From a virus, in IMG/VR virus record IMGVR_UViG_3300020056_001723, positions 1-26,227 of that record: a stretch of 26,227 bases of DNA, one strand, 5' to 3'. The notes under the pieces were generated by a model. The model was not told the origin of the DNA. It was given only the letters and a program-made list of their open reading frames with translations, and did not search any database. Within the stretch, counting starts at the first letter, position 1. Each line of letters opens with the position of its first letter. Shown here piece by piece: positions 9,242 through 21,275 of this stretch. Made by a program: the position numbers and the translations under genes.

Positions 9242-9577
9242 TTAAATATTTACACTAACACCGCAACCGCAAGAGCTCTTTGCCTGTGGGTTGTCTACTA
9301 CTAACATACTACCAGTAAGACTTTCTTGATAGTCAATAGTACTACCTAATATATACATTAAACTGTGACTATCTATTGCGAGAACCTTTCGGTCTGACAA
9401 TTCTATAATTTCATCTGAGTCTTTTATGGGCTCTTCACTACCAAGTTTCCAAAAGTATTCAAACCCAGCGCATCCACCACCTTGCATTCCAAACATTATA
9501 TGAGTTTCATTGTTTTTAGATAAAACATCCAATAGGTACATTTTTGCACTTTCGGTAATTGATAGTACTCTTGTCAT
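9242..9577 (-). CDS. A-type iron-sulfur carrier (IscA/SufA/HesB family)
   Basis: 111 residues, the usual length. The three family cysteines are present: C36 in GGGCAGFEY and C103/C105 in SSCGCGVSV near the end. A-type carriers receive Fe-S clusters or iron from scaffold proteins and hand them to enzymes in the cytoplasm. Such genes are known in ocean T4-like phages, probably to support Fe-S proteins during infection. The ATG overlaps the previous stop as ATGA; the ribosome site is weak, so coupling probably matters. Last gene before a terminator. Confidence 0.9.
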   Translation of the reverse strand: MTRVLSITESAKMYLLDVLSKNNETHIMFGMQGGGCAGFEYFWKLGSEEPIKDSDEIIELSDRKVLAIDSHSLMYILGSTIDYQESLTGSMLVVDNPQAKSSCGCGVSVNI

Positions 9578-9882
9578 TTGTTCTTCTTTCTTAGTTTTTC
9601 TCGCAACGAGTCCATTTCACTACTGGTGTCCTTTTTCTCGTCCCTCTTTTCCACTTTAGTAGACTGTTCCCGCCGTAAGGAATGAATATAGTCTGTTTCA
9701 GTGAGTCCTTTTCTAAGTTCTGCAACTTTTCGTTTAATATCTTCTGTTCTTTCTTGAAGTCCATAGGCTGGTTCACTTCGTTGTTGCTCTAAAAATTCCG
9801 TCCCAATCTTCTGGGAGATCTTGCGTTGACATGAAATCACAACGTTCCATCCACATATCGTAATATCCATCCATTTTGCCAT
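9574..9882 (-). CDS. hypothetical charged coiled-coil protein, start uncertain
   Basis: The second half (about 36-102) is highly charged and helical (LQERTEDIKRKVAELRKGL, then a KLRKKNK end) and ends in ATGA with the Fe-S carrier. The frame has an ATG at 9880-9882 with AAAGGA 7 bases upstream, but that places 110 bases inside the cyclase gene in another frame. A GTG near 9838-9840 would shorten this. A third frame (9591-9776) is also open, but its codons end more often in G or C, so I prefer this one. Function unknown. Confidence 0.5.
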   Translation of the reverse strand: MAKWMDITICGWNVVISCQRKISQKIGTEFLEQQRSEPAYGLQERTEDIKRKVAELRKGLTETDYIHSLRREQSTKVEKRDEKKDTSSEMDSLREKLRKKNK

Positions 9883-11815
9883 CAAATTGTCCTTTCAATA
9901 ACTCGCACAGTTCTATTGCCTTATCGAACTGTTTCTTTCTATAAAACTTTAACATATTTCTGTGTACCAGTTTATACTTTGGCCAATCGGCCCTTTCATC
10001 GTCTAAAACTGTGTATATCGGCAAACCAATACTTTTTCCTTTTACCGCAAGGTCGTCTAATTTTAAATAAAAGAAATCTTCTTTAGTTCTTCTATATGTT
10101 TCTGGGCCAATAATCAACAGTACACCATATGCCTTACACTGTCCCTCTAATCGTGCGGTAGTAGAAACCGAATCACCAAGAACATCATAACTATATCTTT
10201 TAGTCGAACCCATCTCTCCAATATAACCAACACCAGTATTAATACCAGCACCCATACCAACTGGTGGTCTTCCATCGGCAACAAGTCTATCGTTAAACTT
10301 TTCAACCGCCTTTAACATTTCCAATCCTGTTCTTACAGATGTATGTGCGTGTGATTCATCATCAACTGGTGCGTTATGAATATGCATAGAAGCATCACCA
10401 ATATACTTAATTATCATTCCGTTATTTTTTAATACTGGCTCTGTAATTGCATCCATATATCCATTCATTATTTCCGTTAGTCCCTGCACATCATCACCAA
10501 AAGATTCTCCTAGCGGAGTGAATCCTCTCAAATCAGAAAAACATATACTGATCTCTCTTTTCGTACCTTTCTTTACAAGGTCTGGATTATTTTGTAATAA
10601 TTTTACTACAGCAGGCGATGCATATCCCTCAAATTGTTTCTTGATAGCCTGTTTCTGTAAGAACTCATCTAAAAATTTTGCAAGATATCTACTAAGTCCA
10701 ACCAATAGTAAAAATGCAGAAATGGTTGCACCATCAATGAGTAGATTTTCTGTTCTAAATGCATATATCGATCCACCAACAAAACCTACCATAGATACAA
10801 CATAAAATCCTAACCCTAGATATGTCCACTTTGATAATAATATGATAAGAAGTCCTGCAATCACTAATGCACTAATTTCTCCCCACGCCTTTGCGTCTGG
10901 ATGTCTTACTATATTAGATTCATTGAATACAGTTCCTAACATCGCTGCCTGTATTTCGTGTGGCCACACCCCACCTTTCGCAGTAGAAATTGGTTGTGTG
11001 GTTGATGATGCACTAACTCCGACAAATACAACCGCACCATCAAAATTATCTGGCAAATCTACAACACTCGCACTTCTGTATCCCTGCGACCAATCAATCC
11101 AAACTTCTCCCAATTCATTTGTTTGGATAGGCCCATATTGTGGTATTCTAAGTTTATCTACCCCTAATGGTGATAACTTAATTTGGAAGGATTTGTCGCC
11201 GGCAAGTACTCTCAATACTTCCATCGTCAAACTAGGATATAAGACACCACCAGACTCAAAAACTAGTGGAGCTCTTCGTGTAACACCATCAATTTCTGGA
11301 TAAGTATCAACTATCCCTGAACCAAGTGCATAAGTTTCAAGTAATTCAATATTAGATGTGATGCCAGATACACTTGGAATGAGATGCATAAACTCAGAAT
11401 TAATAATTCCAGCGCCAGGGTTGATCGGTTCATTTTTATTCTCCTCAGATCCTATAATACTCAGAATGACTGGATTTTCCATCATTGTTCTTGACAGAAC
11501 TTCGTCCTGCTCAAATCTATCATTTTCACTCATGAGTACATTAAACACAACTAATCCTGCACCTCTGTCGTACAGGTCTTTAATTATATCTGCATATATG
11601 TTTCTTGGAAATGGCCATTGTCCATATTGATTGATAGTTGCATCATCAATATTGACTGTGTAGATATTATTTTCTTGGATTGGTTGATTGACTATAAGAC
11701 TATCGAAGTATCTAAGTCTTAAACTTTCTAATAAATTTGGATTTGTATAGTATCCGTAAGTACATAAAAGAAGTATAATAATACTCCATATGGGAGACAG
11801 TAAGAGTTTTTTCAT
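9773..11815 (-). CDS. CHASE2 class III adenylate cyclase, membrane-bound
   Basis: 680 residues from the ATG at 11813-11815, which overlaps the stop of a tiny gene as ATGA. Order: an N-terminal membrane helix (about 5-22), an exported CHASE2 sensor domain (about 30-305), three membrane helices (about 313-375), a linker, and a cyclase domain (about 420-605). The cyclase has metal Asp428 (FSDLRGFT) and Asp474, Lys470 and Asp544, the adenine-selecting pair, and Arg555. The usual transition-state Asn is Ser551 (GDSVSTTARLE). It would make cAMP from ATP in response to a periplasmic signal, if the Ser permits. A C-terminal helical tail follows. Class III cyclases are very unusual in phages. Confidence 0.9.
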   Translation of the reverse strand: MKKLLLSPIWSIIILLLCTYGYYTNPNLLESLRLRYFDSLIVNQPIQENNIYTVNIDDATINQYGQWPFPRNIYADIIKDLYDRGAGLVVFNVLMSENDRFEQDEVLSRTMMENPVILSIIGSEENKNEPINPGAGIINSEFMHLIPSVSGITSNIELLETYALGSGIVDTYPEIDGVTRRAPLVFESGGVLYPSLTMEVLRVLAGDKSFQIKLSPLGVDKLRIPQYGPIQTNELGEVWIDWSQGYRSASVVDLPDNFDGAVVFVGVSASSTTQPISTAKGGVWPHEIQAAMLGTVFNESNIVRHPDAKAWGEISALVIAGLLIILLSKWTYLGLGFYVVSMVGFVGGSIYAFRTENLLIDGATISAFLLLVGLSRYLAKFLDEFLQKQAIKKQFEGYASPAVVKLLQNNPDLVKKGTKREISICFSDLRGFTPLGESFGDDVQGLTEIMNGYMDAITEPVLKNNGMIIKYIGDASMHIHNAPVDDESHAHTSVRTGLEMLKAVEKFNDRLVADGRPPVGMGAGINTGVGYIGEMGSTKRYSYDVLGDSVSTTARLEGQCKAYGVLLIIGPETYRRTKEDFFYLKLDDLAVKGKSIGLPIYTVLDDERADWPKYKLVHRNMLKFYRKKQFDKAIELCELLKGQFDGKMDGYYDMWMERCDFMSTQDLPEDWDGIFRATTK

Positions 11816-11916
11816 TCTGGTAATTCTCCATCCAATGACTTCCAAATAAACACATGCAGTGATGTGTTTACAATTATTAAAGTTACGAAAAATAAATATC
11901 CCGCTAAAGTCTCCAT
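11812..11916 (-). CDS. tiny membrane peptide coupled to the cyclase (34 aa)
   Basis: A 34-codon frame starting METLAGYLFFVTLIIVN. Residues about 5-25 form one membrane helix, with a short charged tail ending DGELPE. GAGG lies 5-6 bases before the ATG, and its TGA overlaps the cyclase ATG (ATGA). It is the first gene behind a perfect late octamer at 11936-11943. It may be a membrane partner of the cyclase or mainly a leader that delivers ribosomes to it. Confidence 0.65.
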   Translation of the reverse strand: METLAGYLFFVTLIIVNTSLHVFIWKSLDGELPE

Positions 11917-11935
11917 TAGTACCTCATTTCGTGAC

Positions 11936-11943
11936 TATTTATA
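11936..11943 (-). promoter_or_regulatory. late promoter (TATAAATA)
   Basis: A perfect T4 late octamer on the minus strand, 20 bases before the tiny membrane gene and abutting the T-run of the terminator at 11944-11970. It starts the cyclase and Fe-S carrier unit. Confidence 0.85.
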
Positions 11944-11970
11944 AACAAAAACCCGCATTAAGCGGGTCTT
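11944..11970 (-). terminator. intrinsic terminator
   Basis: On the minus strand ACCCGC-TTAAT-GCGGGT is followed by TTTTGTTT. It lies just past the stop at 11975 and ends the short unit with the 56-residue membrane protein. Confidence 0.9.
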
Positions 11971-11974
11971 GTTT

Positions 11975-12145
11975 TTAGTTGTAACTCCAATAAATTATGA
12001 AGTAAGGAATAGCGAAAGGCAAAGTCATTAAACTCATCATTTGTAGTAATTCGCAGAATTTACACACTTGTTCATTCTGTTTCACTTCCTCAAACTTTGT
12101 ATCAATGATCTTCGCAGCCCGCTCGAACGCAACTGCTGTAGTCAT
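11975..12145 (-). CDS. small membrane-tail protein (56 aa)
   Basis: Starts MTTAVAFERAAKIIDTKFEE at the ATG at 12143-12145, with a perfect GGAGG 6 bases upstream. The N-terminal half is an amphipathic helix, two Cys (C28, C31: VCKFCELL) follow, and about 35-53 form a membrane helix. It has its own late octamer before it and a terminator after it, so it forms a single-gene late unit between the curli genes and the cyclase. No family recognised. Confidence 0.75.
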   Translation of the reverse strand: MTTAVAFERAAKIIDTKFEEVKQNEQVCKFCELLQMMSLMTLPFAIPYFIIYWSYN

Positions 12146-12196
12146 TATAGCCTCCAAGTATGAAATGATACATGTGATTGATATAATCACGAAACA

Positions 12197-12204
12197 TATT
12201 TATA
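12197..12204 (-). promoter_or_regulatory. late promoter (TATAAATA)
   Basis: A perfect T4 late octamer on the minus strand, 51 bases before the ATG of the 56-residue membrane protein and 13 bases past the stop of the second curlin-like gene. Confidence 0.85.
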
Positions 12205-12216
12205 AAAAAAATAACC

Positions 12217-12900
12217 TCAATTGTTTCCGTTTATAGTTACCGAGCATCCCGCCGAATTTGTACAATATCCTGTAACACTATAAGAGCCTGCAGATGAAGT
12301 TACATTTTGAGTCAAGTTTAAGGTATATGCACCACCAGAGTTAGTTAGATCTATTGCGGCTGTTGCACTTTGGCTGCCTCGTTGTTCAACATCTACTGTA
12401 TGGCCATCTCCAGTAAGTACAATATCTGTCCATTTCTGGCCACCATTCCCTCTTTGATATAGGTCTACTGTGTTACTGTCGCCCTGTATCTCTACAAAAC
12501 CATCGTGTCCAGCCTTACCCATTTGTATATGTTCTACTGTATTACTATCACCATTTACTATATTTGCTAAGTGGTGTGCTGCACCACCGCCACCACCTCT
12601 ATTGGTATCTGTTTGATAACTTGCAACTGTATTCCCATCACCAGTTACAGTCCAATATGCCTCATGCCCACCAGTTTCGTCACCATCATATGTGTTATCA
12701 TCGTGGATACCTTGCCGTATAGTAATGTCATTATTTGGCCCTGTAGAACTTAGATTAATATAGTTATTTTCACTGCGCTGTTGAATCTCCAAAGTGAGAT
12801 TGTCTCCACTTTGAGTAATATAGATTTCGTTACTACTGACTTTGGGTGATATCGATAGTGTTAGTACCAACACCAAGGCGGTAATCGTATACTGCTTCAT
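12217..12900 (-). CDS. curlin-repeat amyloid subunit 2, exported
   Basis: 227 residues. A signal peptide (about 1-23) leads into a mature start NEIYITQSGDN shared with the other curlin gene. Repeats of the curlin kind follow: GDGNTVASYQ, GDSNTVEHIQ, GDSNTVDLYQ and GDGHTVDVEQ, plus more divergent strands with TGPNND, a Gly-rich turn (GGGGGAAHH) and a C-terminal pair of cysteines (YCTNSAGC). Curlin strands stack as a beta-helix and polymerise on the cell surface after passage through CsgG. The ATG lies inside the FecR gene (68-base overlap), with GGAG upstream. Last gene of the operon. Whether it polymerises is not shown. Confidence 0.85.
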   Translation of the reverse strand: MKQYTITALVLVLTLSISPKVSSNEIYITQSGDNLTLEIQQRSENNYINLSSTGPNNDITIRQGIHDDNTYDGDETGGHEAYWTVTGDGNTVASYQTDTNRGGGGGAAHHLANIVNGDSNTVEHIQMGKAGHDGFVEIQGDSNTVDLYQRGNGGQKWTDIVLTGDGHTVDVEQRGSQSATAAIDLTNSGGAYTLNLTQNVTSSAGSYSVTGYCTNSAGCSVTINGNN

Positions 12901-13957
12901 CTCCCTGCTCCACGTTTATTGTGTATCCATTTTCTTGATGCAATTTCAAATCTAGTCTTTGAGTAACACCAGCATCTTCTCTTATAATTCTCCACATAGG
13001 ATTAATATCTTCTATAGTGATTCTTGTCGTTTCATCATACCCATAAACCCTTTGTGCAAAAAATTCTTCATTTTGTTTATCTAATTCATCTCTAAATATT
13101 TCCGCAAGTGCCAAATTTAACTGATCTAACATGTCGTGTAATAGTTCTTGTAGATAATAATTAGAATCGTGCAATTCAGTTACCCATATATTTTTAATAT
13201 CATCAGTTAATGCATCTTGATCTAAATCATCAAATTCAAGAAAATCTATATCCAGAAAATCAAACATTTTTCTGGCCTTCCTCATAATTTCTTGTTCTTC
13301 TTCCTCATAAGGTGACTTTTTTCTTAACATTAATAAATTATTAATATCGCCTTCAGATATATCTAGTGTAATTGGCGGTAATGGTTTCGACCACATACTC
13401 TTCACAATGGTAGATTGAAACGCCTGAGTCATTATAACAAACCCTGTATCAGTTTCAACCAAAATTTCACCAGTGACACAATAACCATCTATATCACAAC
13501 TTGGCAGTAATGTAATCATACTGCCGCCAATTTCATCAACAACCATAATAAAATCAGTACCCCTTACACTAATCTTTGCACTTGGAGTTCTGATATTAAC
13601 TCTTTGTCTACTGTTTGTGGCGATTTTACCACTTGCGTAACGAATAGTGCCTAATGTAGCCCTCAATCCAAGAGAACCAGTTCCACTATTGGGGTCATAA
13701 ACAAAATCATCTATTAATAGTCTGGTATGTTCTGTCAAATCTACTCTAGTATTATCAATGAAATCTATTCGCATCTTACCACTTTCAGTAACTGCGACAT
13801 CCATAGACTCAACACCTATGCCGTAATCACCAATAATAACATCAGTATCTCTTTCCAATACTCCACTTCCACTCAGGTCAGTTATAGTCCCTGCAGCACC
13901 ATATAGGTTATGTGGAAAACATAACACTAAGAGTAATAAGAAAATGTACCTAAACAT
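12833..13957 (-). CDS. FecR-domain exported protein with curlin-like C-terminus
   Basis: 374 residues. A signal peptide (about 1-20) is followed by a FecR domain (about 22-180): FIDNTRVDLTEHTRLLIDDF, then VNIRTPSAKISVRGTDF and a DEIGGSMITLLP strand. An acidic helical region (about 200-320) follows. The last 40 residues switch to strands ending GTNTIDITQSQ, very like the ITQSG and NTV-type curlin strands of its two neighbours. FecR domains of this kind sit in the periplasm or on the surface and are often encoded near CHASE2 cyclases in bacteria. Here it could anchor or nucleate the fibre. Start joined to curlin 1 by TGATG. Confidence 0.85.
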   Translation of the reverse strand: MFRYIFLLLLVLCFPHNLYGAAGTITDLSGSGVLERDTDVIIGDYGIGVESMDVAVTESGKMRIDFIDNTRVDLTEHTRLLIDDFVYDPNSGTGSLGLRATLGTIRYASGKIATNSRQRVNIRTPSAKISVRGTDFIMVVDEIGGSMITLLPSCDIDGYCVTGEILVETDTGFVIMTQAFQSTIVKSMWSKPLPPITLDISEGDINNLLMLRKKSPYEEEEQEIMRKARKMFDFLDIDFLEFDDLDQDALTDDIKNIWVTELHDSNYYLQELLHDMLDQLNLALAEIFRDELDKQNEEFFAQRVYGYDETTRITIEDINPMWRIIREDAGVTQRLDLKLHQENGYTINVEQGDEAVYDYRLGVGTNTIDITQSQ

Positions 13958-14691
13958 CAGTCTCGTTGTGTTATATTAACGTCTGCGTTATCACCAGAAA
14001 AAGTGGCGTCAATTAAGTTATCATAAATTCCTGATTGGGAAATTTTAAAATTTCCACCGCCACCAGTAATGTCTAGTGTAATACTGTGTCCGTTAATATC
14101 CCCATTTCCAGTTTGATCTATATCAATGTAGTTTCCTGGCGCACTTGTAGAAAGTCCTGTAGTTGCATGTGTGATTGTACCAGATGCAAGACTTGAAGAA
14201 GAATCAACTGTAACAGTGATATCTGCCTCTGTTCCGTCCTGTACTAAATCGATTACATTACCGTCACCAGTAATTGTGAAATCTGCAACTAAATTTTCTG
14301 CGTCATTGTTCTCGCCGATATACATCTGAAATTGGTTATCATCCCCAGTTGTCGTAATATCTAAAGTAACAGTTTCACAGTTTACACCCGAAGTAGTATC
14401 ACAAGTCAAGTCCACTGTATTTGTATCTCCAGTAAATACCCATGTTCCTGTATAAGTATTACCTTTAATTACAGCGTCAATTTCATTGAAATTGCCCGTT
14501 TGGGTAATATCAAATGTCATTGTATCGCCTTGCAATGTCATATCAGTAGTCGAATCACCAATTTTATTGTCTTGTCCATCTTGTACAATATCTAAGTCCA
14601 GATCATCGCCAGATTGTGTAATGTAGATTTCATTAGCGTATACTGGAATAGTGTACAGAAGTGCAAAAATTATTAGTATTTTTTTAAACAT
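13957..14691 (-). CDS. curlin-repeat amyloid subunit 1, exported
   Basis: 244 residues: a signal peptide (about 1-19, ending PVYA) and a mature start NEIYITQSGDD nearly identical to subunit 2. At least six strand units follow, such as ITQTGNFNEIDAVI, TGDTNTVDL, TGDDNQFQMYI, TGDGNVIDLVQ, IDQTGNGD and ISQSGIYDN, with a C-terminal NITQRD. Two Cys (CDTTSGVNC) may bridge. Strongly acidic, unlike E. coli CsgA. It lies directly after csgG with GAGG close to its ATG, the position of a main secreted substrate. Confidence 0.85.
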   Translation of the reverse strand: MFKKILIIFALLYTIPVYANEIYITQSGDDLDLDIVQDGQDNKIGDSTTDMTLQGDTMTFDITQTGNFNEIDAVIKGNTYTGTWVFTGDTNTVDLTCDTTSGVNCETVTLDITTTGDDNQFQMYIGENNDAENLVADFTITGDGNVIDLVQDGTEADITVTVDSSSSLASGTITHATTGLSTSAPGNYIDIDQTGNGDINGHSITLDITGGGGNFKISQSGIYDNLIDATFSGDNADVNITQRD

Positions 14692-14692
14692 A

Positions 14693-15511
14693 TTAGTCCT
14701 CTTGATTTAATTCCATTTTCCAGAGTTGTTTTCTTACTCCACCATAAACTAACTCGATCACGCCCTGTTCTATTGCTGCTCTGACAGCATAATTAACAGG
14801 TTCATTCGATGAAAAGCCGGTTTCAGTTTCTACGAGTTTTGTACCAAGATCTAAAAATTTAAATATATCTGCTCCACTTCGATAACTTGCAATGGTTTTA
14901 TCCGTTGCGATACTCATCAACACCTTACCTGTACTAACACTTACTAGTCGCATAACCACAGTAACAGTATCTATTCTATATTCTGTTTGTGCGCCAACTC
15001 CTAAGTATCTAGCGCCGACACCGCCTGTCGCCGTATTTGAATCATAACCAACCACTCCCCCCTCAAGGATAAGTCCTGCAAAAATCATAGGACTTAGTGG
15101 TTCTGGGCCTCCTGGCCGATTTTTGTCATAGACATCTCTTGTTTGTCTAATCAATTGTCTTTCTTTTATTAAATTGTCCATACCAACACGTTCTACAACT
15201 TCAAACCATGTACCATTACCTACATCTTGAAGTGCCTTTATAACCCAAACCTCTGATCCTTGAGTTACTGCAGAACTTAAACTTGCAATATTAGATGCAG
15301 ATTTTCTTTGTCCAGTCTTATCTAAAAACTGATAAACAGCAATCGTAATTTTTGGCCCATCAATTGGGGGAACCGCCGCAAGACGTTCCTTAATAGGACT
15401 CTCCTGTAGTTCTGGAGAAGTATTAACATCCCACAAAGTTTCAAGACTTTTTTGAGTTGCACATCCAGATAAAACTAAAAGAGAAAATATTAATGGTACT
15501 AATTTTATCAA
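14693..15511 (-). CDS. csgG: CsgG, outer-membrane curli secretion channel
   Basis: 272 residues (E. coli CsgG has 277). A lipobox LSGC gives lipidation at Cys17. The CsgG core follows: ITIAVYQFLDKTGQ, then EVVERVGMDNLIKERQLIR, GGVVGYDSNTATGGVGARYL, VSTGKVLMSIATDKTI and FSSNEPVNYAVRAAIEQGVI, all matching the family. Nine such subunits build a channel that exports unfolded curlin. The pore-loop segment (KSASNIASLSSAV, about 70-82) has no aromatic residue, unlike Tyr/Phe of the E. coli constriction. The start is TTG (15509-15511) overlapping the csgF stop, with GGGGAG 8 bases upstream. Confidence 0.95.
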   Translation of the reverse strand: MIKLVPLIFSLLVLSGCATQKSLETLWDVNTSPELQESPIKERLAAVPPIDGPKITIAVYQFLDKTGQRKSASNIASLSSAVTQGSEVWVIKALQDVGNGTWFEVVERVGMDNLIKERQLIRQTRDVYDKNRPGGPEPLSPMIFAGLILEGGVVGYDSNTATGGVGARYLGVGAQTEYRIDTVTVVMRLVSVSTGKVLMSIATDKTIASYRSGADIFKFLDLGTKLVETETGFSSNEPVNYAVRAAIEQGVIELVYGGVRKQLWKMELNQED

Positions 15512-15969
15512 AAACCAAACTCCCCTGTTGGAATTGTTATTTCAGTAACACTTCCATCTTCTTCAACGACAGTTAGTGTTATAGTACCAGCAATTGGATC
15601 CTTTACCCAAGTTATAGTAGAACCTTCGATATCGGCCGTCCCAGTATTAGAACATGTATCTCCACAATCAGCAAACATTGCATCTACCATCTGTTTAGAT
15701 AATGTTGCATAAATTCGAGATTCAATGTTTCTTAAAAACTTAGCAAGAGTTGTATTTTCAAGTTCTCTCTGAATTCTTGCCGCTTCTGCTTCTGCCTCTT
15801 TTCTTAAATCTTCTTTTCTGTTGTGTTGTAATTGTTCAACACTTAATACATGTGTCGAATAACCATTTCCATAATGGAAGGCGGGATTCTTAAATCCCCA
15901 AGTTAATTCTGAAGCATATAAATTACCGCTCAAAAATGTTAAACCTATTGTCATAAGTATTTTTTTCAT
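15508..15969 (-). CDS. csgF: CsgF, curli assembly factor
   Basis: 153 residues. A signal peptide (about 1-19) leads to ELTWGFKNPAFHYGNGYST, the family's mature start (E. coli has FQFRNPNF), which inserts into the CsgG pore. A helical neck (about 45-95) and a C-terminal beta domain follow (DPIAGTITLTVVEEDGSVTE). CsgF couples secretion to fibre nucleation outside the cell. One Cys pair (CGDTC) is unusual. AGAGG lies upstream of the ATG. The gene is joined to csgG through TTGA. Confidence 0.92.
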   Translation of the reverse strand: MKKILMTIGLTFLSGNLYASELTWGFKNPAFHYGNGYSTHVLSVEQLQHNRKEDLRKEAEAEAARIQRELENTTLAKFLRNIESRIYATLSKQMVDAMFADCGDTCSNTGTADIEGSTITWVKDPIAGTITLTVVEEDGSVTEITIPTGEFGF

Positions 15970-15979
15970 AAGTTTTCCT

Positions 15980-16273
15980 CTAGGAATTTTCTTTTCGTTT
16001 TTTTATAACTTCTTCTACTTCTTCATCAGATGGGACAACAACTCCCTTCTGTTGTAAAATCATATTTAACTTTGTATTCAATCTAATCAAATCATTATCT
16101 AACATTCTAACCCTATCGATTAGTGCTATCAGAGTCATATGTGATTCTTCAATAACAGGATCTACCTCTTCTGTTACCCAATGCCAGATATAGTATATGA
16201 AATAACCCAGTCCAAATGCGGCTATGATAGGAAATCCATATTGTCCTATTAATGATCCTAATTCTAAGTCCAT
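15980..16273 (-). CDS. membrane/coiled-coil protein, type A copy 2
   Basis: 97 residues: one membrane helix (about 12-30, GFPIIAAFGLGYFIYYIW), an acidic stretch, a coiled coil (about 45-75, IDRVRMLDNDLIRLNTKL) and a charged tail. It shares GFPI, DRV and a M-x-N-(D/E)-L-(L/I)-R core with the gene at 16657-16944, so the two are paralogues. The layout is like BhlA/UviB-type small phage membrane proteins, sometimes called holins. Its place directly before csgF suggests a membrane role in the late unit. Confidence 0.75.
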   Translation of the reverse strand: MDLELGSLIGQYGFPIIAAFGLGYFIYYIWHWVTEEVDPVIEESHMTLIALIDRVRMLDNDLIRLNTKLNMILQQKGVVVPSDEEVEEVIKKRKENS

Positions 16274-16475: not shown

Positions 16476-16657
16476 GTCGTAGTATCCTCTGCAACACTTC
16501 CAATTTTTTCAAAATAACCATTAGGCCCAACTTGATATAAATCACCAATCTGTAACTCAACATCATCAATAACAAAAAATTTATCGTCTGGATCTTTTGC
16601 CGATGTAATTCTAAATCCGTTTTTAAATTTCATTAATAGTAAGTCTTTCCAAAGCAT
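16472..16657 (-). CDS. small hypothetical protein, type B copy 1
   Basis: 61 residues starting MLWKDLLLMKFKNGFRITSA, a paralogue of the gene at 16275-16475 (shared GDL-(Y/F)-x-V and aromatic-x-x-I end). The ATG shares a base with the stop of the gene before (TAATG). It is probably a small beta domain; function unknown. Confidence 0.7.
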   Translation of the reverse strand: MLWKDLLLMKFKNGFRITSAKDPDDKFFVIDDVELQIGDLYQVGPNGYFEKIGSVAEDTTT

Positions 16658-16944
16658 TAATCTTTCCTCGCATCTGTTTGTCCATCCGCTCTTGCAATTC
16701 TATTAAGATCTGCAGGCAATAATGGAATGTTAAATGATCTACACATTAGTATATCAATTCGCAAGAGTTCATTATTCATGGTCTTCACTCTATTATCTAA
16801 AGATTGCACAAACCCTCTTTGTGTTTTGATATTATCCAAAACCCCAGCAAGAATAAATTTTAATGTTAAGAAAACGAAAAAACCTCCGGCAAGAGCAGAG
16901 GCAATCGGAAACCCGACATCGGCTACTAAAGATAAAAAGTCCAT
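16657..16944 (-). CDS. membrane/coiled-coil protein, type A copy 1
   Basis: 95 residues: a membrane segment (about 8-36, VGFPIASALAGGFFVFLTLK), then a coiled coil (about 48-66, LDNRVKTMNNELLRID) and a soluble tail. First gene of the late operon that contains csgF and csgG, 19 bases after a late octamer, with GAGAGG as ribosome site. It is paralogous to 15980-16273. Holin-like by layout only; it could equally help build or place the secretion channel. Confidence 0.75.
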   Translation of the reverse strand: MDFLSLVADVGFPIASALAGGFFVFLTLKFILAGVLDNIKTQRGFVQSLDNRVKTMNNELLRIDILMCRSFNIPLLPADLNRIARADGQTDARKD

Positions 16945-17216: not shown

Positions 17217-18524
17217 CTAATCTATGATGATTGGTCTATCCAATCTTTCTATTTCTCTAACAGTTGCAGCTGCGTCATTCCTATATTTATTGTCATCATT
17301 AATAAGAGATACATCATATCTCACTCTGTTAATTGCATATGCAGTATCCGTAATTTGTCGATTCCCTGCAATATCTTCTGGTATATTTCTAGATGCATCG
17401 CCAAGAATTTGTCCACAAGTAAGTAACGAATTACTATGAAAATTGTCCCAATATCCATAAGACATTATATCATCATGTTCTCCACACACATCATTCCACC
17501 CATGACCAAACTGTGGAAATATATAACCAGAGTTTGGAAATCCTTGATTTTCTGGGCCGTGGGCAAGTCCTATCGAATGTCCGATTTCGTGTAAATCGGT
17601 TTTCCATGTACAAGCTGCCATTGAAACAATAGGATACCCCTCATAAAATCTAGTGTTGGGATATGCAACACCGCAAGTGTTTACATATGTGGTTCCTGCA
17701 CCCAATACAATGTCTGTATTAACTTCTGTTGCAATTTTTTCTAAATTATATAATCCGTGATAATGGGCTATCCAAATTTCTTTGAGTACAAATCTAGCAA
17801 AGACGCCAGAATCTTCATACAGTTTGTTAAATTTTTCAACTCTTGTATTCCACTTCACCCACAATCTAGAAGGGTCGTCATTCGGGTCTATATTTGAAAT
17901 AAGGCCTGGTTCCATGTCATCACCCTCAATATGACGTTCATATTCAAAAATAGTTAATTCAAAATTAACAATAGATTCATCATCTTCACCATAAAAAATA
18001 AATCCTTCTTCTGGTGAATTTCTCGACACCGCATATCCAAGACAATCTACAAGACCTTCATGGGCACATCTTGGTTCATCTTCTATAGTGTAAAGGAATT
18101 CTTCATCATTTAAAATAATCGTACCTTCACCAATTCTTCCATCACCATAAATTAAAAGTGTATACTCATCGGGAGTTTCAACCCGCCCTATTGTTTCTTT
18201 TGTAGTTTCATACCACCAATCTAATATAATATCTTCTACTGGTTCACCAAACTGTTCATATGAAACTTCAACCACAACGGGGTTGAATCTATCACCAGTT
18301 GGCAAAGTCATTTTAAAAACGACAACTGGTTCCTCATAACCACAATCTTCTGATAACTTTTCTTCTACTACATAAGTTCCGCCCTTACCATCGTGGTATT
18401 CTTGAAACTTAGAGTAGTTTTGACACCAATAATCTGCAACTGGTGTCCCGGCTAGGGGATATGATTCCCCACTACTACATGCACTCAAAAAAAGTGCAAG
18501 TACTACAATATACAATCCTTTCAT
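17217..18524 (-). CDS. metzincin-type zinc metalloprotease, lipoprotein
   Basis: 435 residues. The lipobox LSAC places lipid on Cys16. A long Cys-containing N-terminal region precedes a zinc protease domain with HEIGHSIGLAH (H312, E313, H316, H322) and a Met-turn at M354 (DDIMSYGY), the two hallmarks of metzincins. Several cysteines (about C284, C305, C347, C370) suggest disulfides outside the cytoplasm. It would cut proteins at the cell envelope or on the surface. It sits in an operon with a lipase, so the pair looks like an envelope-attack set. The exact metzincin family is uncertain. Confidence 0.85.
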   Translation of the reverse strand: MKGLYIVVLALFLSACSSGESYPLAGTPVADYWCQNYSKFQEYHDGKGGTYVVEEKLSEDCGYEEPVVVFKMTLPTGDRFNPVVVEVSYEQFGEPVEDIILDWWYETTKETIGRVETPDEYTLLIYGDGRIGEGTIILNDEEFLYTIEDEPRCAHEGLVDCLGYAVSRNSPEEGFIFYGEDDESIVNFELTIFEYERHIEGDDMEPGLISNIDPNDDPSRLWVKWNTRVEKFNKLYEDSGVFARFVLKEIWIAHYHGLYNLEKIATEVNTDIVLGAGTTYVNTCGVAYPNTRFYEGYPIVSMAACTWKTDLHEIGHSIGLAHGPENQGFPNSGYIFPQFGHGWNDVCGEHDDIMSYGYWDNFHSNSLLTCGQILGDASRNIPEDIAGNRQITDTAYAINRVRYDVSLINDDNKYRNDAAATVREIERLDRPIIID

Positions 18525-19210: not shown

Positions 19211-19373
19211 TTGTATTCTCCAATATCTTTAGTACTTTGTCATATCCAGATATTTCGCCTAACAAATGTGATCTAATGTGATCTGGAATTGCCTTTACAA
19301 GGGTTTTACCATCTAATTTTTTGCGGTTAAGATCCCTCAATCTTTGTATATCTGCAATCATTTTTGCAGTCAC
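19176..19373 (-). CDS. hypothetical protein (65 aa), GTG start
   Basis: Starts at GTG (19371-19373), overlapping the lipase stop as GTGA, with GGAG 7 bases upstream. Basic and helical (IADIQRLRDLNRKKLDGKTL), with a GYDKVLKIL helix near the end. Such small proteins beside lytic enzymes are sometimes chaperones or regulators, but nothing here shows that. Confidence 0.65.
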   Translation of the reverse strand: MTAKMIADIQRLRDLNRKKLDGKTLVKAIPDHIRSHLLGEISGYDKVLKILENTNVGNDREDGNR

Positions 19374-20137
19374 GGTTTGTCTCCTATGGATTCTTTGAAC
19401 CCTTCCGTATATCTCATATAATATTTCATACCATGGTCATAAGCACCATCAAAAAATTGTCTTTTCTTTAGGGCAGCCCATCGTCCTCTCATCTGATCTT
19501 TAAATCTTTGCCATGGTGTCATTTTACGAATATTGCCATAAAAATTAATATAACACAACTCACCATGATGTTTATAAGTAAAGATTGCAGGCGGTACACT
19601 TGGTACTATATCATTATTGTTTACAACTCGAATATGATTTGAAATATTAGATTTGCAGTATTCACGATTGCCGACTCTTGGCGAACCAAATGTACATAAA
19701 CAAGTTACCGATGGTAATCTGCCGGCGACAATGGTGGCCATCGCACCACCTAATGAATGTCCAGTCACAAACAACTTTCTATTTTTTTGAAGTGTCTGAT
19801 TAAATCTCACATCTAAAACTTGTTGTTTTACCAATTCCCATAATTTGGAAACTTCTTTTTCAAATCCTAAATGAACTCTTCCTGCAAGAAGTGATTTCTT
19901 CGGCCATGCTTTAAGGTCTGCCTTGATATCATTGAATTGGTCTGGTTCTGTTCCCCTAAATGCGACAATAACATTATCCTCGTTCCAAACTACATATGCT
20001 TGGGCCCCCGAATTATCATAGTATCTTACATGCGGATATCCCATTTTATAAAACTTAGGGTCTGCTTCGTTTTTTGTTAAATATGCATAACTTGCCGCCT
20101 TGGCCATATCATGCACAGTTAATGTGTACTCATACAT
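19370..20137 (-). CDS. class 3 lipase (alpha/beta hydrolase)
   Basis: 255 residues from the ATG at 20135-20137, with GAGG 6 bases before it; a longer reading to 20170 lacks a site. Family marks are AFRGTEP (about 59-65, oxyanion region), the nucleophile elbow GHSLGGAMA with Ser128, Asp176 in NNNDIVPSVPP and His235 in DHGMKYY: a full Ser-Asp-His triad. It hydrolyses ester bonds in lipids. No signal peptide, so it acts in the cytoplasm or is released at lysis; attack on host membranes or lipid recycling is plausible. Overlaps guaC by 8 bases. Confidence 0.88.
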   Translation of the reverse strand: MYEYTLTVHDMAKAASYAYLTKNEADPKFYKMGYPHVRYYDNSGAQAYVVWNEDNVIVAFRGTEPDQFNDIKADLKAWPKKSLLAGRVHLGFEKEVSKLWELVKQQVLDVRFNQTLQKNRKLFVTGHSLGGAMATIVAGRLPSVTCLCTFGSPRVGNREYCKSNISNHIRVVNNNDIVPSVPPAIFTYKHHGELCYINFYGNIRKMTPWQRFKDQMRGRWAALKKRQFFDGAYDHGMKYYMRYTEGFKESIGDKP

Positions 20138-21275
20138 TTTTTGCCTCGTATACTCTATTATGTGTATCATTACACAAAATAAAAGTTGTACATTTACTTA
20201 GTCTTTTCAACTTATCTGCGCCAACATAAGTACATGCTGATCGCATTCCGCCAAGAATATCTTGAACAGTAGATGCAACAGTACCCCTGTATGGAACGAG
20301 TACTTCTCTACCCTCACTTGCACGATAGTCTTTCAGTCCACCAAAGTGTTTTGTGTTTGCTGCATCTGAACTCATTCCATAAAACTTCACAAATTTTTTC
20401 ACTTCTACTTTGCGTGTACGGTTATCTAAATGATCGCCTACTTCATATACAACTTCGTTTGTCTCGTAATATTTATTTATAACCTCTCCACCACCCTCAA
20501 TATGTCCAGCGAGCATACCGCCAAGCATTACAAAGTCTGCACCAGCAGCAAATGCCTTTACAACATCACCAGCTGTCGTACACCCACCATCAGCAATAAT
20601 ATGCCCGCCAAGGCCATGAGCGGCATCAGCACATTCGATAACAGCGGAGAGTTGAGGATAACCGACTCCAGTTTTAATACGAGTAGTACACACACTGCCA
20701 GGGCCAATACCCACTTTAACAATATCTGCTCCATTTAAGATTAACTCCTGTGTCTGATCTGCAGTAACAACATTTCCTGCAATAATTACAATTCTTGGAT
20801 AGTTTTGACGAAACAGTTTTACAAACTCTACAAATCTTTCCGTATATCCATTTGCAACATCAATACAGACATATTTTAAAAGTGTACCGACTTGTTCATA
20901 AACATTACGAAACTTCATTTCGTCTGCATCTGTTATTCCAATAGACATGGCAACACATTCAGTTCTTTCTTGCATGTCGTTATCAAAATAAGAAACAAGT
21001 TCATTCACTGTATATGTTTTAACGAGACATGTAAAAAGGCCACCCTCTGCGAGTTTGTCTGCCATGTCAAAAGTACCCACCCCATCCATATTTGCAGCCA
21101 TGATGGGCACACCTTCGTAATGCACATCACTTACATTATCTGGGAAATCTGCAGAATAGTTTCTATATGTAAACCTTCGTGCAAGGTCAACTTCCCTTCT
21201 AGAAGTTAGTGTACTTCTTTTGGGGCGAATGAGGACATTGTTGTAATCCAGTTTTACTTCACTGTCGATTCTCAT
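20130..21275 (-). CDS. guaC: GMP reductase
   Basis: 381 residues, slightly longer than E. coli GuaC (347). IMPDH/GMPR barrel: PIMAANMDGVGTFDMA, the catalytic loop KVGIGPGSVCTTRIKTGVGYPQLSA with Cys196 and Thr198, the IADGGCTTAGDVVKA phosphate site, and FYGMSS with YRASEGREV later. It lacks the CBS domains of IMP dehydrogenase, and the loop fits GMP reductase, which makes IMP from GMP with NADPH. In infection it would move guanine nucleotides toward IMP and adenine nucleotides, fitting an AT-rich genome. Coupled by ATGA to the gene before it and by overlap to the lipase. Confidence 0.9.
   Translation of the reverse strand: MRIDSEVKLDYNNVLIRPKRSTLTSRREVDLARRFTYRNYSADFPDNVSDVHYEGVPIMAANMDGVGTFDMADKLAEGGLFTCLVKTYTVNELVSYFDNDMQERTECVAMSIGITDADEMKFRNVYEQVGTLLKYVCIDVANGYTERFVEFVKLFRQNYPRIVIIAGNVVTADQTQELILNGADIVKVGIGPGSVCTTRIKTGVGYPQLSAVIECADAAHGLGGHIIADGGCTTAGDVVKAFAAGADFVMLGGMLAGHIEGGGEVINKYYETNEVVYEVGDHLDNRTRKVEVKKFVKFYGMSSDAANTKHFGGLKDYRASEGREVLVPYRGTVASTVQDILGGMRSACTYVGADKLKRLSKCTTFILCNDTHNRVYEAKNV

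Follow-up and report, generated by a model that had tools for sequence, protein, structure and literature searches.

The window, by which we mean the whole stretch of DNA that was analysed (26,227 bases), is an IMG/VR record of a marine bacterial virus. It carries a curli gene cluster in the order csgF-csgG-curlin-FecR-curlin-cyclase, with the cyclase gene last. The features of this region are as follows.

9773..11815, minus strand: CHASE2-transmembrane-class III nucleotide cyclase, 680 aa (ORF, Pfam, AlphaFold2 and Foldseek)
11813..11917, minus strand: 34-codon ORF (METLAGYLFFVTLIIVNTSLHVFIWKSLDGELPE), its stop codon overlapping the start codon of the cyclase (ATGA), read from sequence
11936..11943, minus strand: TATAAATA, an octamer resembling a T4-type late promoter (sequence; not conserved)
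11948..11970, minus strand: terminator-like hairpin directly before the octamer (sequence)
12217..12900, minus strand: curlin-repeat protein 2 (Pfam Curlin_rpt, E 3.7e-8)
12833..13957, minus strand: FecR-domain protein, 374 aa, with a signal-like N-terminal helix and C-terminal curlin-like strand repeats (Pfam FecR, E 2.7e-8)
13957..14691, minus strand: curlin-repeat protein 1 (Pfam Curlin_rpt, E 1.6e-5)
14693..15511, minus strand: CsgG outer-membrane curli secretion pore (Pfam CsgG, E 6e-49)
15508..15969, minus strand: CsgF (Pfam CsgF, E 9e-12)
15980..16273, minus strand: small membrane protein, 97 aa, which precedes csgF in many related phages (ORF; no Pfam family above cut-off)
16657..16944, minus strand: small membrane protein, 95 aa (ORF; no Pfam family above cut-off)

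The cyclase gene is a complete open frame (11815..9773, minus strand) with its ATG at 11815. The Pfam CHASE2 model matched it with an E-value of 1.5e-34 (120 bits; cut-off 26.3) over residues 26-334 counted from an upstream TTG, that is, about 16-324 from the ATG, and Guanylate_cyc (PF00211) matched with an E-value of 9e-17 (61.6 bits against a gathering score of 21.9). In the AlphaFold2 model (mean pLDDT 89.6), read together with hydropathy, a transmembrane helix at about 8-24 is followed by a CHASE2 fold from about residue 26 to about 304, membrane helices at about 308-380, a cyclase fold at about 418-605 and a helical tail at 611-662. In Foldseek, the cyclase domain matched CyaB of P. aeruginosa (TM 0.89, scaled to the target length) as well as CyaC of Spirulina. 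The protein thus has the CHASE2 receptor-cyclase layout, in which membrane helices flank an N-terminal CHASE2 domain, predicted to be periplasmic, and the output domain is cytoplasmic. The original prediction of a complete sensor-membrane-cyclase protein on a phage, next to curli genes, was borne out on both counts.

A cluster of this kind has been described before. The curli genes csgF and csgG were reported in pelagimyophages and in phage Melnitz (PMC7029224, 2020; PMC9004378, 2022), and FecR and adenylate cyclase genes were then found in the phage curli cluster of both myo- and podoviruses (PMC9599517, 2022), where an alphaproteobacterial origin and transfer between viral families were argued and a regulatory role was proposed. 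The core finding of a curli-FecR-cyclase cluster in phages was therefore already in print in 2022, which the original prediction had overlooked. The window holds the genes by which the published cluster is defined (csgF, csgG, curlin repeats, FecR and cyclase as neighbours in a phage), in the same order as the pelagiphage T8SS/curli cluster (PMC9599517; HTVC008M gp19, NC_020484; Melnitz gp104, MZ577097; phrog_35576). Its cyclase belongs to phrog_35576 (E 3e-171) and is 48% identical to the Melnitz protein and 34% identical to that of HTVC008M. A text search of PMC9599517 returned no mention of CHASE or CHASE2, and the CHASE2 sensor, an altered active site and the adjoining fusion of sensor and amyloid domains appear not to have been described previously. 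What is added here is the CHASE2 sensor, the strength of the curli linkage, the curlin-like tails of the FecR proteins, and a bacterial FecR-CHASE2-cyclase pair that stands apart from curli genes.

In the published cluster, one or more histidine kinase genes lie ahead of csgF (PMC9599517). The two window genes in that place encode membrane proteins of 95-97 aa without a Pfam kinase domain, set beside the published kinase genes by description only; such a pair of small membrane proteins (15980-16273 and 16657-16944) lies upstream of csgF in many curli phages. Farther out on the minus strand, the window holds a gene at 17217-18524 whose product begins like a lipoprotein and weakly matches reprolysin-like metallopeptidases, a class 3 lipase gene (19370-20170), which some relatives also have close to their curli cluster, and a GMP reductase/IMPDH-like gene (20130-21275), which shares 53% identity with one from a 290-kb record listed as Salmonella Infantis in a phage collection. 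On the other side, an IscA/HesB-type iron-sulphur protein gene (9242-9577, minus strand) adjoins the cyclase; it occurs in 16 of 144 loci of the subfamily to which the window cyclase belongs (A, below) and in 0 of 64 loci of the other (B).

We surveyed phages for CHASE2 cyclases with FecR and csgG, as the original prediction had suggested. Of the 114 phage cyclase loci that had 6.5 kb or more of sequence upstream, 110 carried csgG on the same strand; these loci are partly non-independent, as some contigs entered through more than one search. Of the remaining four, three (L079, L182 and L184) have csgG nearby on the opposite strand, with the cyclase gene inverted or moved, and the fourth (L096) ends at a contig edge, yet holds FecR and curlin genes. 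The reverse test gave the same picture: FecR and the cyclase were both present in 49/49 csgG loci with at least 6.5 kb downstream, and no phage cyclase stood apart from curli genes in the loci examined. The curli linkage is obligate, in that it holds in every phage locus with enough flank. Its persistence through inversions indicates more than operon inertia.

The cluster also occurs in contigs of 221 kb (L019), 245 kb (L078) and 300 kb (L398) that carry T4-type gp23 and portal genes and exceed the cultured pelagimyophages in size. The two long contigs closest to the window (129-136 kb) gave no match to T4 gp23, portal or terminase, so its placement goes through more distant relatives. Matches in a record named Acinetobacter phage MD-2021a were set aside; there the cyclase sits amid mfd, isc and hsc genes, and the record looks to contain bacterial DNA.

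The original prediction placed the cyclase behind its own late promoter. A single TATAAATA octamer does follow the hairpin, and the 34-codon ORF (11917..11813) lies between it and the cyclase start. As a conserved promoter the octamer did not hold up: it occurs four times in the window against 2.9 expected by chance, lies within 220 nt ahead of the cyclase in only 4 of 107 relatives, and was found in 6 of 41 gaps before the cyclase against 4.2 expected, which is no enrichment. On these counts we rejected a conserved late promoter. In subfamily B the cyclase usually starts a few bases after the curlin gene (median 5 nt). In the window phage, hairpin and octamer could set the cyclase apart as a late unit of its own; since the octamer is not conserved and the subfamily B genes follow so closely behind curlin, late expression is possible for this phage and is not a family trait. 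A conserved short ORF before the cyclase was also rejected, as the peptides differ between relatives and none is common among those listed. A second TATAAATA octamer (12197-12204, minus strand) lies ahead of a 71-aa ORF (12190..11975) that is an ORF in very few of the compared loci. The window contained no riboswitch or other known RNA.

The FecR protein has a feature that had escaped the original prediction, namely its curlin-like tail. Phage FecR proteins are open frames of 333-404 aa with a signal-like N-terminal helix, a FecR domain, a helical middle and curlin-like C-terminal repeats. The FecR part matched the PupR structure 6ovk in Foldseek, and for residues 306-372 of the window protein AlphaFold2 predicted a row of short strands, most of it at pLDDT values of about 83-92. 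The motif N-x-I-x-I-x-Q occurred within the last 40 residues of 132 of 150 phage FecR relatives and was absent from all control stretches, taken 200-240 residues from the end. Q372 is invariant, and Y345, Q351, G362, N366, I368 and I370 are nearly so. No mention of such a FecR-curlin fusion was found in the main texts of the papers searched.

We next consider the active site. The original prediction listed D428, K470, D474, D544 and R555; all five lie at exactly those positions, and each is invariant in the window's subfamily. Reduction of 238 phage cyclases at 90% identity left 125 representatives, 77 in subfamily A (the window and Melnitz) and 48 in subfamily B (HTVC008M). Whereas D428, K470, D474 and R555 are invariant in all 238 phage sequences and in 79 bacterial relatives, two other positions separate the groups. 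Subfamily A has Asp544 and Ser551 in 77/77 representatives, and the window cyclase is of this Melnitz-like D544/S551 type; the 48 representatives of subfamily B have Ser544 and Asn551, and in the bacterial relatives (79/79) Asn551 comes with Thr or Ser at position 544. The transition-state Asn is thus replaced, by Ser551, only in subfamily A, together with the change at the base-reading position 544. Measured against the class III residues, the window protein keeps the metal-binding Asp428/Asp474, the base-reading Lys470/Asp544 and Arg555, and the transition-state Asn is absent, a change that had escaped the original list of kept residues. This substitution of one residue of six lowers confidence in cyclase activity, which might be weak or altered; by its fold, its metal site and its family scores the domain remains in class III.

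Selection was examined by comparison with five close relatives. Omega was 0.07-0.09 (about 0.08) for the whole protein, 0.06-0.17 for CHASE2 and 0-0.03 for the cyclase domain, where 0 to 4 replacement changes stand beside 22 to 34 silent ones. Purifying selection therefore acts on every domain of the window cyclase, and the catalytic residues are invariant down to about 30% identity. Loss of catalytic residues in relatives, together with a lack of activity on ATP or GTP, had been named beforehand as a refutation; D428, K470, D474 and R555 are kept throughout, and 551 is Ser in subfamily A.

To place the phage genes among bacterial ones, we scanned genomes and obtained 80 loci. One of them (L254, contig JADHSL010000081.1 in a Pirellulales MAG) has a cyclase that groups within the phage clade, so we took it for phage DNA that apparently ended up in a planctomycete bin. 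Upstream sequence of 1.5 kb or more was available for 69 bacterial CHASE2 cyclase loci. In 18 of them a FecR ORF immediately precedes the cyclase in the same orientation, in most cases overlapping it or lying within about 20 nt of it, and 28 of the 69 have FecR somewhere in the locus; the expectation that the two genes are often neighbours in bacteria thus held. Neither csgF nor csgG occurred in any of the 69, and when 20 of these genomes were searched in full for CsgG, most gave no match. The bacterial FecR partners instead end in TPR repeats, RTX repeats or cadherin-like domains. In the tree, the phage cyclases formed one clade on a long branch (SH-aLRT 100) among alphaproteobacterial and SAR86 cyclases, with the nearest sister not resolved; a single viral group in a set with alphaproteobacterial cyclases agrees with PMC9599517, and our set also includes SAR86. 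The phage cyclases descend from bacterial CHASE2 cyclases that are often paired with FecR, and a bacterial FecR-CHASE2-cyclase pair without nearby curli genes is the likely source of the phage genes. The bacterial neighbourhood makes uptake of the two genes as a set, as the original prediction had it, plausible. It also suggests an order of events, which we infer to be that the FecR-cyclase pair is older and that a phage lineage joined it to curli, FecR gaining a curlin tail.

Two bacterial systems offer comparisons. The S. meliloti CHASE2 cyclases CyaD1, CyaD2 and CyaK produce cAMP in answer to a protein signal, for which NsrA in the outer membrane is required, and their effect runs through Clr, a Crp-type regulator (PMC13001267, PMC7529298). 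They share the CHASE2 plus class III cyclase layout with the window protein, and there, too, a sensor in the periplasm receives an outside signal jointly with a second envelope protein, as we read the phage case. They differ in that S. meliloti has Clr whereas the phages searched lack a Clr-like cNMP-binding protein, and, unlike the phages, the Rhizobium relatives examined have no curli genes beside the cyclase. In the Burkholderia biofilm operon (BiofilmReg), a FecR/LysM protein is encoded with a CHASE2 histidine kinase (PMC5192318). As in the phages, the gene for a periplasmic FecR-domain protein adjoins that for a CHASE2 membrane sensor, with a link to biofilm; however, the output is a histidine kinase and not a cyclase, and the operon is without curli genes.

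Starting from the computed domain make-up, catalytic residues, purifying selection, curli linkage, FecR-curlin chimera and bacterial descent, we infer an active enzyme for which FecR would be the activator, curlin the ligand, cAMP the product and a host receptor the reader. As a whole, we give a probability of roughly 50% to the reading that the protein is a phage transmembrane receptor cyclase, in which a cue from the FecR-curlin protein passes through CHASE2 into a cyclic nucleotide, most likely cAMP, that is read by a host protein. The CHASE2 domain would sit in the periplasm and, cued by the neighbouring FecR-domain protein, would switch the cytoplasmic class III cyclase, whose output would be cAMP or possibly a related cyclic nucleotide. 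By analogy with the bacterial pairs, the FecR-curlin protein is the best candidate for a partner of the phage CHASE2 domain. Because the phage FecR protein ends in curlin-like repeats, the likeliest cue would be the presence or export of phage curlin subunits at the CsgG/CsgF pore, and the cyclase may then monitor curli assembly or the state of the envelope; it is gene order and domain make-up that point to FecR-CHASE2 contact and to curlin sensing. No cNMP-binding domain or effector was found in 25 phage records of up to 300 kb, many of them fragments, so the signal would need a reader in the host, probably a Crp-type or other cNMP-binding protein. All 60 sampled genomes of Methylophilaceae, which we take to be the family of Melnitz's OM43 host, contain at least one cNMP-binding domain. 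A more specific version, which we consider rather unlikely, is a phage-encoded relay: the FecR-curlin fusion in the periplasm would inform the CHASE2 cyclase, its active site rebuilt (D544/S551), of amyloid export, and the infected cell would receive a cyclic-nucleotide signal tied to the assembly of phage curli.

The kept catalytic residues, the strong purifying selection and the presence of cNMP-binding proteins in all sampled Methylophilaceae would also suit general host reprogramming, in which the cyclase raises host cAMP and alters transcription via Crp-type regulators, and its proximity to curli reflects joint acquisition. We consider this unlikely, though it deserves serious attention; the CHASE2 sensor is conserved alongside the cyclase domain (omega 0.06-0.17), and the cyclase remains with curli where gene order is broken and was never seen away from curli in the loci examined. 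If instead the cyclase were a leftover of an acquired module, without present function, it would be hard to explain why every domain is under purifying selection, why the catalytic residues do not vary down to about 30% identity and why the gene is kept wherever the flank is long enough to tell. That the role of curli genes in the phages themselves is not known (PMC7029224, PMC9004378) leaves some room for such a passenger, a reading that we strongly disfavour and regard as highly improbable.

The paired changes from Thr or Ser to Asp544 and from Asn to Ser551 raise another question, whether they shift the product or slow the enzyme, so that it makes another cyclic nucleotide or serves mainly as a switch. 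Both changes are fixed in the 77 subfamily A representatives and absent from the 48 of subfamily B and the 79 bacterial relatives, and the domain shows weak similarity to Pycsar PycC models. However, the best PADLOC PycC match of the window cyclase (E 2e-14) is weaker than that of a bacterial CHASE2 cyclase (1e-30), and the HTVC008M cyclase also matches better. A relationship to Pycsar was therefore rejected in favour of a shared class III domain only; the ORFs and Pfam matches of the window included no Pycsar effector gene. Lys470/Asp544 is also the adenine-reading pair of class IIIa adenylyl cyclases. We regard such altered chemistry as rather doubtful, somewhat more so than host reprogramming.

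Curli genes are widespread in marine phages, and the known hosts are without curli. That these genes are so strictly paired with a FecR-curlin protein and a CHASE2 cyclase suggests a phage which monitors amyloid secretion or signals it. If true, this would be a rare example of a virus that equips a bacterium with a viral cyclic-nucleotide receptor enzyme, and it would offer a route to learning what CHASE2 domains sense.
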